Shown: positions 35,444 to 40,346 of the stretch, piece by piece
Layout of the letters: each line of letters begins with the position of its first letter
How positions within the stretch are numbered: position 1 is the stretch's first letter
Assembly (NCBI RefSeq): GCF_024748615.1
Contig: NZ_CP087168.1
Location: 2,356,001-2,420,000 of the forward strand
Direction: 5' to 3'
DNA: 64,000 nt
Source of the DNA: Pseudomonas sp. B21-048
Lineage (GTDB): Bacteria; Pseudomonadota; Gammaproteobacteria; Pseudomonadales; Pseudomonadaceae
Program-made: the position numbers and the translations under genes
The notes under the pieces: generated by a model
Seen by the model: only the letters and a program-made list of their open reading frames with translations
The model's database searches: none
Told to the model about the DNA's origin: nothing

Positions 35444-35932
35444 ATGCGCAAACTGGACCGTACCGATATCGGCATTCTCAACAGCCTTCAGGAGAACGCG
35501 CGCATCACCAACGCCGACCTCGCGCGCTCGGTGAACCTGTCGCCGACGCCGTGCTTCAACCGGGTCAAGGCGATGGAAGAATTAGGGCTGATTCGTGAGC
35601 AAGTGACCCTGCTGGATGCCGACCTGCTGGGGCTGCATGTGAATGTGTTCATTCACGTCAGCCTGGAGAAACAGGTGGAGGAGGCGTTGCAGCATTTCGA
35701 AGAGGCGATCTCGGATCGCCCGGAAGTGATGGAGTGCTATTTGATGGCCGGTGACCCGGACTATCTGATCCGCGTGCTGGTGCCGACCATTCAGTCGCTG
35801 GAACGCTTCATGATGGACTTTTTGACCAAGGTGCCGGGGGTGGCGAACATTCGTTCGAGCTTTGCGCTCAAGCAGGTGAGGTATAAGACGGCGCTGCCGT
35901 TGCCGGCGAATGGGTTGACTCTTGGGACTTAA
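35444..35932 (+). CDS. bkdR: Lrp-family activator of the bkd operon
   Basis: A 162-residue Lrp/AsnC regulator: [43 protein letters not shown], then the RAM ligand-binding domain ([19 protein letters not shown]). In P. putida BkdR senses branched-chain amino acids and activates bkd transcription; the divergent layout here is the same. A GC-rich hairpin follows the stop codon. Confidence 0.94.
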
Positions 35933-35944
35933 TATATTGAATGT

Positions 35945-35965
35945 GGGGCGGGGAGTTTCCGCCCC
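35945..35965. terminator. Hairpin between bkdR and the AT-rich island
   Basis: The 7-bp stem GGGGCGG/CCGCCCC lies between the convergent bkdR and RloC-like genes. It lacks a clear T-run. It marks the edge where base composition drops sharply. Confidence 0.45.
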
Positions 35966-35977
35966 TAGATAAGTTGA

Positions 35978-38335
35978 TCAAGTAATGCTCTCAATTAATG
36001 AGTTGTATTGATCTGGGTCCTTTTGTTTTATTGTGTTGAGCACATAATTGGCAAGTTTTGGTATTTCCGGGATCTCAGAGGGTTTGATGCTTCTGTCAAA
36101 AATTTCTTCTAGGTGGGATTGTTCATTGTAAAGTCTATTTGAGAGCTCAGTGGCTAACTGGTCGCCACCAAAAAATTTTCCAAGTTTTTCTTCCGTGCTC
36201 GAGTGCGAAGGGTATTTGTAGAAAAGGTACGCTTCTAGAAATTTTCTCAAGTTGTTGCCAAAATTATAGAAGGCTTCGTGGTCCGAATCGCCTATTATTG
36301 GTTGGGTGCATTTGTATATCTGGCTGAATAAGTAGTTGAATTCGGTTATATAATTTTTTAGGTAGCTAGGCATTAGCTTAATGGCGGAGTTTCTTTCGGT
36401 GCGTTCCAAGATAAAGTATTCGGAGTCGTTCTTTGGTTTCGAGATTCTTTTTAGGTATTTGAGGAAGTCTAGGCTGTGGGTCGAAATAAATAACTGACTA
36501 TATCTGTATGTATTCGTTTGGTTGACGGCCTTTATCGGTTTGGCTAGCATTGCTTCGATCAGGCTGTAGACGAAAAATATATGGTTGCTATCAAGGCTTG
36601 AAATTGGGTCGTCAATCCAAATTATTAATTCCTTGTCTTTGGTTTCGATATCTTCTAGTTTTGCCATGAAGTAACAGAAGGCTACGAGGCTGCACTCGCC
36701 TTCGCTGAGATTGTGAGCTATATCATTTGATCTACTGATTCTAAAATGAACACCTTTTGTAGTATCTTCGTCTATGGCGGATAGCTGTAGTCCGGAGTGT
36801 CCGAAATGATGTTGTAGATAGTGATTGACCTTTTCAGCACCTTTTCGCTCATCCTTAAGTTGGTTCTTAAGAATGCTTATATCTTTTTCTGCTTTTGTGA
36901 TTTTATTTGATATTTCATTTTGTTGTTTGTTTAAGGTTGTTTGGAATGTGGTAAGTGTTTCGATGTTTTTTGTTGTCGTCGAATACTCAATGTCCTTTAT
37001 GAAGGTCGCGATTTCGTCATATTTTAAGCTTTTTCGAGCAATCTCCTGGTCCTTTGCTATTGTTCCAGTTTTTGCGTTGTGCTCATTTACTATCTCCTCG
37101 ATAGACTTAAGGGTTTTTTCAATATCTTGAGGGTTGCTCAATAAAGTAGGTTTTGGCTGAGGAGAAAATATATTATTTTCTCTGGCGTGTAATGATGATA
37201 TTAACAATAAGAGGTCGTTTTTATATAACTCTTTTCCGTTTTCCAGCTTTTCATTCAGCTTAACGAATTTTGATTCAAGTGCTGAGTAAAAGGATGAGGC
37301 TTTTAAGTTGATTGAGATGTCCGAGGATCTTGTTTCTGTATCAAGTTTGTTTTTTAGGGTGGTAATTAAAGTGCGGAGATTTTCAGATTCTTTGCTAAAA
37401 TGTGCATCTATTTTTTTCCAAAGATCGGATGGCAATGGATTGCCACAGAAGTTGCAATGTGTCTCTTTCCCCTTGTGGAGCATTGCACCCGTACGTACCC
37501 ACTCCTGTAAAATAGCGTTATTCAGTAGTTTTTGTATTGTGTCTGTGGGTTTTATTTCCTGTTCTAAAAGCTTGTTGGCTTCTGTTTGAAAGCTATGTAG
37601 CTTATTGGTGAAGTCGCTTTTAAAGCTCAGTGTTTCTTTATTTTCCTCTGTAAGGATCTTTCGTAACTTGAGCTGTTCTTCTATTGGTAGGGGGTTGGGG
37701 GTCGCTAATAATATGGCCGTTATGTCGTTTTTTATTTTTTGTATATTGTATGTTATCTCCCTGTATATAGGGTTGGTTTTTATGCTTGTGTTGGCCTTGG
37801 TTTTTAATTTTTCATCTAGGGTGTTTGATACTTTTGTGAGTGTGGCTGTGTTTTTTTGGTTTTCTTCGATTTTTGTTTTTAGTTCGTGTCGGAGACCTTT
37901 TTTATCCGATTCTGAGCCAAGTAGAGCCTCTTTCTCTTCGATCTCTTTTTCCAGCGCTATATTAGGTTCTCCTAGCACGGCAAAGGGTTTAATTGTTCCG
38001 TCTGAGTCTGAAAGCCATTTTAGATTTTCTTCAACGAAATCTTTATTGTAAACCCGTACATGGTATGGGCAGTTGGTTAATGTTGTGCTGTCGAGCTTTT
38101 GGGCTCCGCTGTGAGTGAATTCATAACTGGAGAGCTTGTATTTTTCATGAGGTGTTTTAGTTTCCAATGTTCTCACTATTCTGGATAGGCTTGTTTTTCC
38201 TGAGTAATTGCGACCATATAGAATGTTTAGTTTTTTAAACTTGGCTATATTGTTGCCGGTGTCTCTGGTGGAAGAGTCCCAGTCGAAGTCTTGATATATG
38301 GCAAAGTTTTTTATTTTTCTGATTTTTGTGAGCAT
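35978..38335 (-). CDS. RloC/PrrC-like ATPase, candidate anticodon nuclease
   Basis: A 785-residue ABC/SMC-type ATPase. Walker A GRNYSGKT (41-48); PrrC/RloC-type motif VYNKDFVEENL (95-105); long coiled-coil region about 125-510 with a CxxC (Cys294, Cys297 in HCNFCGNP), reminiscent of the RloC zinc hook; signature LSEGE (543-547); Walker B IIWIDDP (571-577); H-loop STH (618-620). The C-terminal domain has Arg697-x3-Glu701 (LRKFLEAYL) and His741 (NEQSHLEE), the order of the Arg-Glu-His triad of PrrC/RloC anticodon nucleases. The expected role is abortive tRNA cleavage on phage infection. Codon use and base composition are strikingly AT-rich compared with all neighbours, so the gene is probably acquired. 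AAAGG ribosome-binding site. Confidence 0.82.
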   Translation of the reverse strand: MLTKIRKIKNFAIYQDFDWDSSTRDTGNNIAKFKKLNILYGRNYSGKTSLSRIVRTLETKTPHEKYKLSSYEFTHSGAQKLDSTTLTNCPYHVRVYNKDFVEENLKWLSDSDGTIKPFAVLGEPNIALEKEIEEKEALLGSESDKKGLRHELKTKIEENQKNTATLTKVSNTLDEKLKTKANTSIKTNPIYREITYNIQKIKNDITAILLATPNPLPIEEQLKLRKILTEENKETLSFKSDFTNKLHSFQTEANKLLEQEIKPTDTIQKLLNNAILQEWVRTGAMLHKGKETHCNFCGNPLPSDLWKKIDAHFSKESENLRTLITTLKNKLDTETRSSDISINLKASSFYSALESKFVKLNEKLENGKELYKNDLLLLISSLHARENNIFSPQPKPTLLSNPQDIEKTLKSIEEIVNEHNAKTGTIAKDQEIARKSLKYDEIATFIKDIEYSTTTKNIETLTTFQTTLNKQQNEISNKITKAEKDISILKNQLKDERKGAEKVNHYLQHHFGHSGLQLSAIDEDTTKGVHFRISRSNDIAHNLSEGECSLVAFCYFMAKLEDIETKDKELIIWIDDPISSLDSNHIFFVYSLIEAMLAKPIKAVNQTNTYRYSQLFISTHSLDFLKYLKRISKPKNDSEYFILERTERNSAIKLMPSYLKNYITEFNYLFSQIYKCTQPIIGDSDHEAFYNFGNNLRKFLEAYLFYKYPSHSSTEEKLGKFFGGDQLATELSNRLYNEQSHLEEIFDRSIKPSEIPEIPKLANYVLNTIKQKDPDQYNSLIESIT

Positions 38336-38388
38336 GATAAACCTTTCTTGTGGTTTTTACATGTGGCTACTAACCCATGTTTGCTCTG

Positions 38389-39222
38389 CTAAGATAAGCA
38401 TGGTGTAGGTTTGAGCTGTATTGGGTTTTGGTTGTGTTTCAGTTGTAATTCTATGTACTGCAATGCTTTCCATAGGCGTAAGCGCCCTAGAGCCCAGATT
38501 AACAACCCGATTCGTTCATCGCACAGATTGTTATCTATTATTTTCTTTGCATCAGTTGTAGTGAGTTTTTTGTTGAGCTTGGCAAGGACGTAACAAAATG
38601 ATATTTCGTCGAGGTCTCTGAGTTCCTCGAGCAACTGAGGATGCTCTTTACCTATTTTTAAATATAGCCTTGAATACTGCCATCCTTCAGAGAAAGTATT
38701 TACAATATTCTTCCTGATAGGGACCAGCGCGTCTGTAGGGAAAGTGTTGGTTATGGTCCATGCGCATTCAGCGTCGTTGAATGTATTCCATGCTTCAAGA
38801 AGTATATCTTGAGAGTCGTTCTTGTTTCTTGTAATGCTCTTGTATCCCCTCTTGCGAATCCCGATATACTTAGATTCCAGGAAAAGTGTTTGGATCCGCT
38901 TTCTGGTGTCGGCTGGGGCGCAGTCAGAGATGTTTGTCAAATAATAGCCAATACTTTGTCTGTGTTTTGAAGTGACAGAAGTGAGCTCTTTCTCTAATAC
39001 GCCTAAAAGGTTTTCGTGACACGGAAGCATTTCGGATTCTATGTCGGAGCATATTTTCTTCAGGGCTTTATCGAGGAGGCGTTTGTTTTTCCTGGGGATG
39101 GACTTGAAAAGCTCACATGTTTGTTCTGGAGTTAAACAGAAGCAGTAGGCATGTATTAAGTTGCTTGAGTGGAAAACAATATCAGTAGGGTCGTAATTTA
39201 TTAGCTCATTAATTCTGTCCAT
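38389..39222 (-). CDS. Unknown helical protein, partner of the RloC-like ATPase
   Basis: A 277-residue, cytoplasmic, Lys/Leu-rich all-helical protein (for example ELFKSIPRKNKRLLDKALKK, HRQSIGYYLTNISDCAPADT, KRGYKSITRNKNDSQDILLE, LLIWALGRLRLWKALQYIEL). The helix pairs resemble HEAT/ARM repeats, but I recognise no domain. It is AT-rich like the ATPase gene 53 bp downstream and on the same strand, so the two probably form one transferred operon. It could regulate the nuclease, act as antitoxin or sense infection; nothing in the sequence decides this. Confidence 0.75.
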   Translation of the reverse strand: MDRINELINYDPTDIVFHSSNLIHAYCFCLTPEQTCELFKSIPRKNKRLLDKALKKICSDIESEMLPCHENLLGVLEKELTSVTSKHRQSIGYYLTNISDCAPADTRKRIQTLFLESKYIGIRKRGYKSITRNKNDSQDILLEAWNTFNDAECAWTITNTFPTDALVPIRKNIVNTFSEGWQYSRLYLKIGKEHPQLLEELRDLDEISFCYVLAKLNKKLTTTDAKKIIDNNLCDERIGLLIWALGRLRLWKALQYIELQLKHNQNPIQLKPTPCLS

Positions 39223-39482
39223 TTTCCACCCGGAAATTTCGTCCTTGGTAAATTAGGGTAGCAGAGTCTAGGAACGCCGTAGTAATGCTTTAGTCTATCT
39301 GTGGTGTTCAGTTCACTATCCATACCTCCTACGAGCTTTGTACTGCGGAAGAGGGGTTGTTTTAAGGGTTTTTCTGTCTGTTTATCTTTTAAAACATATG
39401 GTTACGTGGGTTTTATACGTTGCAATGTGAGCCTCCATCCCGTCCGCACCTTGTATTTAGTAACGATGTCGTGCGATCGGGC
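39223..39482. other. AT-rich non-coding end of the island
   Basis: This 260-bp stretch separates the island operon from the persulfide dioxygenase-like gene. It should hold the island promoter. T-rich runs (TTTTAAGGGTTTTTCTG) and TATCTTTTAAAACATATGG stand out. A 70-codon plus-strand frame exists, but it has no good ribosome-binding site and looks non-coding. GC content returns to normal by about 39480. No direct repeats or tRNA end are visible. Confidence 0.5.
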
Positions 39483-40346
39483 TTACATACGGTTGATCGG
39501 GATTTTCAGGTAGGTCACGCCGTTATCTTCGGCCGGCGGCAAATTCCCCGCCCGCACATTCACCTGAATCGCCGGCAGCAACAGCGTCGGCATGCACAAA
39601 CCGGCATCACGCTGGATGCGCATCGCGACGAAGGAGGCCTCATCAATGCCGTCGTGAATATGAATGTTGCTTTTGCGCTGCTCGCCAACCGTGCTCTGGC
39701 ATTGCGGGGCGCGGCCCGTGGGCGGGTAATCGTGGCAGACGTAAAGCCGCACGCTGGCGGGGAAGGCCAACAGTTTGTGGATTGAGGCAAACATCTGGTT
39801 GGCATTACCGCCAGGGAAATCGCAACGCGCAGTGCCAACGTCCGGCATGAACAACGTATCGCCCACCAGAATCACATCGCCGTCGATCAAATAAGCCATG
39901 TCCGCCGGGGTATGCCCGGGCACATGCAGGGCCGTGGCCTTCAGGTTGCCAATGCGGAATGATTCGTCCGGCGCGAACAGGTGATCGAACTGTGAACCAT
40001 CGGCGCTAAATCCCGGTTCGAGGTTGAACAGTGCCTTGAACACGTCCTGAACCTTGCTGATCGATTCACCAATCGCAATCTTGCCGCCCAGTTCCCGACG
40101 CAAATAAGGCGCGGCCGACAGGTGATCGGCATGGGCGTGGGTTTCCAGTAGCCATTGCACCTGTAACTGGTGTTCGCGCACGAAGGCGATGATTTTGTCG
40201 GCCTGGACGGTCGCGGTGCGCCCGGCGGCGGGGTCGAAATCCAGTACCGGGTCGACAATCGCGCAGTGCCCGCCATCGTGTTCGTAGATCACGTAGCTGT
40301 AAGTCGACGAGGCGGGGTCAAGAAAGGCTTCAATCAACGCAGACAT
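39483..40346 (-). CDS. MBL-fold persulfide dioxygenase/hydrolase (Blh/ETHE1-like)
   Basis: A 287-residue metallo-beta-lactamase-fold enzyme. Metal ligands: LLETHAHADHLSAAPYL, HVPGHTPADMAYLI, VILVGDTLFMPDVGTARCDF and LYVCHDYPPTGR. This matches the Blh/ETHE1-like proteins that oxidise glutathione or other persulfides formed by sulfide:quinone oxidoreductase. It is divergent from the BigR-like repressor, with a perfect palindrome between them, and close to the sulfide:quinone oxidoreductase and TauE/SafE genes. Confidence 0.9.
   Translation of the reverse strand: MSALIEAFLDPASSTYSYVIYEHDGGHCAIVDPVLDFDPAAGRTATVQADKIIAFVREHQLQVQWLLETHAHADHLSAAPYLRRELGGKIAIGESISKVQDVFKALFNLEPGFSADGSQFDHLFAPDESFRIGNLKATALHVPGHTPADMAYLIDGDVILVGDTLFMPDVGTARCDFPGGNANQMFASIHKLLAFPASVRLYVCHDYPPTGRAPQCQSTVGEQRKSNIHIHDGIDEASFVAMRIQRDAGLCMPTLLLPAIQVNVRAGNLPPAEDNGVTYLKIPINRM

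Follow-up and report, generated by a model that had tools for sequence, protein, structure and literature searches.

An RloC-like nuclease gene beside a HEAT-repeat gene in an AT-rich island of Pseudomonas sp. B21-048

Does an anticodon nuclease of the RloC kind act alone, or can it come under the control of a second protein? The stretch of 64,000 nucleotides from Pseudomonas sp. B21-048 that we analysed (contig NZ_CP087168.1, positions 2,356,001 to 2,420,000; hereafter the window) raises this question through a two-gene island, in which a gene for a 785-residue RloC-like ATPase-nuclease lies downstream of a gene for a 277-residue helical protein, here called the helper. RloC occurs in many bacteria, but what sets it off during phage infection is not settled. 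The locus is a natural case of RloC with an extra protein and lets external regulation of RloC be asked. If the HEAT protein proves irrelevant, RloC is confirmed as self-contained; if it matters, a HEAT subunit attached to a nuclease of the Rad50 type would, to our knowledge, be new in bacterial defence. With a probability of roughly 0.7, we favor a defence-type insert in which RloC is a self-switched effector and the HEAT gene either a dispensable accessory or a passenger.

The 785-residue protein is almost certainly an RloC. The PADLOC model PDC-S06, a candidate defence family, matches residues 1-783 (2.3e-290), Pfam AAA_13 matches at 2e-144, and the PADLOC PrrC profile matches at 3e-10, with its best stretch over residues 490-742. 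An earlier note, made by a model from the letters alone, had read in this protein a Walker A motif (GRNYSGKT), the string VYNKDFVEENL, a CxxC at 294-297 and an Arg697-x3-Glu701...His741 series; all are there as it described them. Its assignment to the RloC/PrrC-like anticodon nucleases is likewise supported by the profiles, the conserved residues and the Rad50-like head. The Walker lysine, both cysteines and the arginine, glutamate and histidine columns do not vary across an alignment of 43 hand-chosen rows, where residue numbers run one lower because the reference lacks the first methionine. The available text on GkaRloC places its catalytic residues at R692, E696 and H737 and a hook residue at C291, and gives lengths of 658-897 residues for RloC and 341-416 for PrrC (PMC2610378). 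In its length and its coiled-coil/CxxC insert, the predicted protein resembles RloC more than it does PrrC.

In the structural model, long helices flank the CxxC, and sequence and model together point to a zinc hook. Fold searches, the Foldseek list included, were dominated by Rad50 and SMC heads, with chains of the Lamassu LmuACB complex among the matches. The C-terminal domain is all-helical; matches to the ATPase head took up the fold-match lists, where HEPN did not appear, and we assign the domain to HEPN by family, as the available text of PMC3710099 does for RloC-type C-terminal domains. A sequence search of the PDB gave no convincing match for either the ATPase or the helper. Apolipoprotein profile matches of the ATPase fell within the coiled coil and were taken as artefacts.

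The helper belongs to a real protein family, because it has homologues (21 by sequence and 40 by profile) and a confident model, with a mean predicted local distance difference test (pLDDT) score of 90.6. The model consists of tandem antiparallel helix pairs, and we confidently predict a HEAT-type alpha solenoid of a real but rare family, which bears out and refines the earlier description of a 277-residue helical protein ahead of the ATPase gene. HEAT solenoids commonly serve as protein-binding scaffolds. Matches of the helper to Pfam Pneumovirus_M2 (0.044) and NCBIfam Gar1 (0.05) were below cut-off and taken as chance. One homologue, P0009, carries a precomputed PF15053 annotation, and a distant relative at locus L005 matches PADLOC LeoBC at 0.03.

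The earlier note had put the helper forward as a new partner of RloC and proposed a survey of whether its gene is conserved beside RloC-like genes. That survey went against the proposal. Helper profiles found no match in the DNA of any of the 29 other RloC-like loci compared, of which 24 offer about 880 bp or more of upstream sequence. Eighteen of these loci encode proteins at least 34% identical to the window RloC (34-57%), and the other 11 (L022, L023 and L065-L073), at 23-28%, are less informative. The closest relative with a readable context, L016, is 56% identical, the neighborhoods of relatives at 57-75% and of most helper relatives, which are metagenome-type, lying outside the comparison. 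RloC relatives occur in 9 of 199 genomes of the genus at 1e-60 and in 2 of 369 genomes of the class at 1e-80, the strain's own genome included in both counts, as well as in nine plasmid records at 1e-60 and at 73 loci on viral contigs; phage records held none at 1e-30. Only the first 20 viral-contig loci (L054-L073) entered the survey; the remaining 53 scored lower or matched in part and were dropped before counting. At one of the 20, L063, the RloC-like gene has an interrupted reading frame.

The association is equally lacking from the side of the helper. No RloC relative (E ≤ 1e-10) is present in any of the five other helper-bearing genomes searched (L002, L003, L004, L005 and L028), with the strain's own genome as positive control. 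Searches of 95 relatives, 369 genomes of the class and 319 of the phylum each returned a single helper match, the strain's own. Among 200 genomes of the family to which G601 belongs, G601 alone matched, and among 196 of the order to which G604 belongs, G604 alone; 196 genomes of the order of G603 yielded G603 and G833; a search of the genome collection, limited to two peptide patterns, found four loci. Plasmid and phage collections gave no helper match at 1e-3, although nine plasmid records carry an RloC relative, and viral contigs gave none. The available texts on RloC, PrrC, PDC-S06 and HEAT-repeat anti-phage defence, as far as they extend, report no HEAT-repeat partner of RloC. A single recurrence stands out: the homologues P0001 and P0022 each share 97% identity with a window protein, and because both report a longest contig of 3698 bp, it is very likely that one near relative carries the pair as well. 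Among the 120 listed of 1033 RloC relatives, there was no further helper/RloC pair sharing a longest-contig size. On the loci examined, the helper is not supported as a conserved partner of RloC, and we reject that role.

How, then, might the enzyme be controlled? The available texts of PMC2610378 and PMC3874168 describe RloC as rarely linked to restriction-modification and as having an internal switch, made up of its ATPase and a putative DNA-break sensor; they also report that RloC of a natural host was still activated in restriction-gene mutants. Because RloC has its own switch, the window protein most likely needs no silencing partner, and we think it quite probable that it functions without the helper. 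The steps beyond sequence and fold are carried over from GkaRloC and AbaRloC. By this analogy, the ATPase and zinc hook would hold the nuclease domain shut until DNA ends from infection or damage engaged the ATPase head. ATP hydrolysis would then free the nuclease domain, the HEPN-type C-terminal domain would cut tRNA at the anticodon, and translation would halt before the phage completes, so that sensing of DNA ends and cleavage of tRNA would add up to phage defence.

The PrrC gene sits within a type Ic restriction-modification locus; the window rloC gene does not. The insert contains no type I restriction system, and the earlier remark to that effect holds locally. It does not extend to the genome, where a candidate set of type I hsdM, hsdS and hsdR genes (Pfam) lies near 0.79 Mb, about 1.6 Mb from the window, which begins at 2.36 Mb; a further restriction-type helicase gene stands beside them (G000:C1:784000-802000, L128). 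The local absence is no anomaly, because RloC is rarely restriction-linked and has its own internal switch. The less common, restriction-modification-linked arrangement was seen at L053 (1480-5028), where a type I specificity (Methylase_S) gene stands immediately upstream of an RloC-like gene.

Several points weigh against the reading of a self-switched defence nuclease with a dispensable neighbor. When the C-terminal 147 residues were searched alone, as the earlier note had suggested, they did not match the PrrC profile; the longer alignment reaching residue 742 did. The same domain is modelled with modest confidence, with pLDDT below 50 around H741, and the fold matches cover the ATPase head only. 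A functional partner stays conceivable in view of the tight same-strand arrangement and the twin pair at 97% identity. Additionally, in the available text of a survey of P. syringae strains, RloC correlated with phage susceptibility, not resistance (PMC12447246), and the available text of a study of S. thermophilus lists RloC among the systems present, without a test there (PMC12322248). Protection of Pseudomonas by RloC is not established.

Among the other explanations, the one that fares best is a sub-case of our own, namely that the helper is a pure passenger, perhaps linked to immunity or defence, with no bearing on RloC. We regard this strict form as possible, on the doubtful side. It fits the variety of genes that adjoin helper relatives: a 394-aa gene without family assignment at L002; two genes without family assignment and a weak HNH-like gene (HNH_5, 0.015, below cut-off) at L003; and, at L005 (944-2298 and 6129-7070; Winogradskyella), a CdiI_3 immunity gene that the distant helper relative follows, with a DraG-like gene (below NCBIfam cut-offs) further on. 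It fits less well with the shared orientation, the close spacing and the keeping of the pair in the twin.

That the helper has any effect on RloC seems to us unlikely, and that it is a required partner appreciably less likely again. In such a two-gene system, the HEAT protein would bind RloC and silence it, load it on DNA or relay a phage signal, replacing the role that a type I enzyme has for PrrC. The genes share a strand and a similar foreign GC content, they are 53 bp apart with no terminator-like site called between them, the pair recurs on apparently one 3698-bp contig, and a scaffold would suit such a role. At L004 (9962-14592), moreover, a helper relative precedes a different SMC-type ATPase gene, with LmuB-like matches, and an AbiV-type HEPN gene. 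However, that relative is broken into two frames and stops 465 bp short of the ATPase gene, RloC is described as internally switched, and the two surveys found the helper at none of the 29 other RloC-like loci and RloC in none of the five other helper genomes.

A bolder form would make the helper a bacterial counterpart of the HEAT subunits of cohesin and condensin, a solenoid that docks on the Rad50-type ATPase and gates release of the tRNase, with the same family serving ATPase-plus-HEPN pairs such as that at L004. We hold this to be improbable, and a HEAT subunit that regulates a Rad50-type nuclease is weakly supported. Least probable is that the ATPase is no tRNase but a Rad50/SMC-like protein that processes DNA, akin to Lamassu LmuB, since the LmuB profile match (1.4e-19) and the Rad50, SMC and LmuACB fold matches that suggest it are set against PDC-S06 and AAA_13 matches spanning nearly the full length, C-terminal domain included, and a conserved R-x3-E...H in that domain. 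We return to a self-switched RloC whose helper is most likely a passenger or an accessory that it can do without.

The setting of the two genes is that of an insert. The flanking genes, which we take to be bkdR and a persulfide dioxygenase gene from the earlier note and by recognition, not from any tool, enclose DNA of 38-41% GC in a window of 59% GC. Windows of 500 bp over about 36.0-39.5 kb have GC contents of 0.36-0.43, and the flanks about 0.5-0.65. By gene, the values are 0.379 for the ATPase and 0.412 for the helper, compared with 0.579 for bkdR, 0.590 for the persulfide-dioxygenase-like gene and 0.59 for the whole window; at third codon positions they are 0.413 and 0.468, compared with 0.733-0.789 in three flanking genes. 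The sharp change of composition between bkdR and the sulfide locus that the earlier note had claimed is seen by both measures. The window contains no tRNA gene, and Rfam has no match to 35800-39600. The island ends lack a direct repeat, and no integrase was recognised among the open reading frames (ORFs) of the insert. The sole symmetrical element at the island is a 19-nt inverted pair, 79% complementary, inside the outer ends of both genes.

The insertion site is a variable junction between convergent genes. Sixteen relatives have a close bkdR, and in eight of them (L030, L032, L033, L036, L038, L049, L050 and L051) the DNA read also shows the persulfide-dioxygenase-like gene, which the stretch compared in the other eight does not include. 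The distance from 3' end to 3' end is 44, 93, 140, 177 and 368 bp in five relatives, taken as empty, and 3550 bp here. Junctions of 994 and 1010 bp in two relatives each hold a tyrosinase-domain gene, and one of 7340 bp holds a caspase-domain gene and, among others, two 433-aa ORFs that are identical over the 160 residues compared and that we presume by recognition to be transposases. With four fillings in nine genomes, the strain's own included, the junction appears to be a small hot spot at which foreign genes collect in this genus.

Within the insert, the helper and rloC genes are probably co-transcribed, and promoter and terminator scans gave scores no better than shuffled sequence. Translation of a 40-codon ORF at the start of the helper gene is doubtful, because its AGGAGG lies only one base ahead of the ATG; it had no match in the other loci compared. 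Coordinates are collected in Table 1.

Table 1. Features of the island in window coordinates, with counts over the 29 other RloC-like loci
Feature	Position	Strand	Remarks
Whole insert between bkdR and persulfide-dioxygenase-like gene	35933..39482		3550 bp, as against 44-368 bp in five relatives
rloC-like gene, 785 aa: ABC ATPase head of Rad50 type interrupted by coiled coil, helical C-terminal nuclease domain (predicted)	35978..38335	-	ORF, profiles, model
Helper gene for a 277-aa HEAT-type alpha solenoid (predicted), upstream of rloC on the same strand	38389..39222	-	ORF, homologues, model
Gap between helper and rloC, 53 bp	38336..38388	-	AAGAAAGG before rloC start; no terminator-like site called
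40-codon ORF, doubtful	39201..39323	-	22-base overlap with helper start
Walker A GRNYSGKT, residues 41-48	38192..38215	-	Lys47 is Lys in 28/29 other loci; L059 called from late start
C294-x2-C297, zinc-hook motif	37445..37456	-	invariant in 43 rows; 29/29 other loci
R697-x3-E701, two of three reported catalytic residues	36233..36247	-	28/29 other loci
H741, third reported catalytic residue	36113..36115	-	28/29 other loci; modelled stretch pLDDT <50
All-helical C-terminal domain, residues ~656-785	35981..36370	-	helices from model, block pLDDT 46-87; HEPN assigned by family

The closest known counterpart is RloC itself, the wobble nucleotide-excising tRNase of Geobacillus kaustophilus and Acinetobacter baylyi, with which the window protein shares its length, a Rad50-like head, a coiled coil with CxxC and an R-x3-E...H at a spacing near-identical to that of GkaRloC; RloC usually has no linked restriction system, and the window gene has none in its insert. 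What sets the window gene apart is the HEAT-repeat gene upstream of it, which none of the other RloC-like genes examined has for a neighbor. With the PrrC anticodon nuclease it has in common the catalytic residue pattern and an ABC ATPase, but it is about twice as long, has the coiled-coil/CxxC insert and lacks a linked type I system. Its near full-length match to PDC-S06 revealed no difference in the ATPase-nuclease, whereas the helper matches no PADLOC model. In the model, the helper shares with the HEAT-repeat scaffolds CAND1, karyopherin-beta and the PP2A A subunit a solenoid built from antiparallel helix pairs in tandem. We conclude that the island RloC is a further member of a known nuclease kind, accompanied by a co-oriented accessory or passenger gene.

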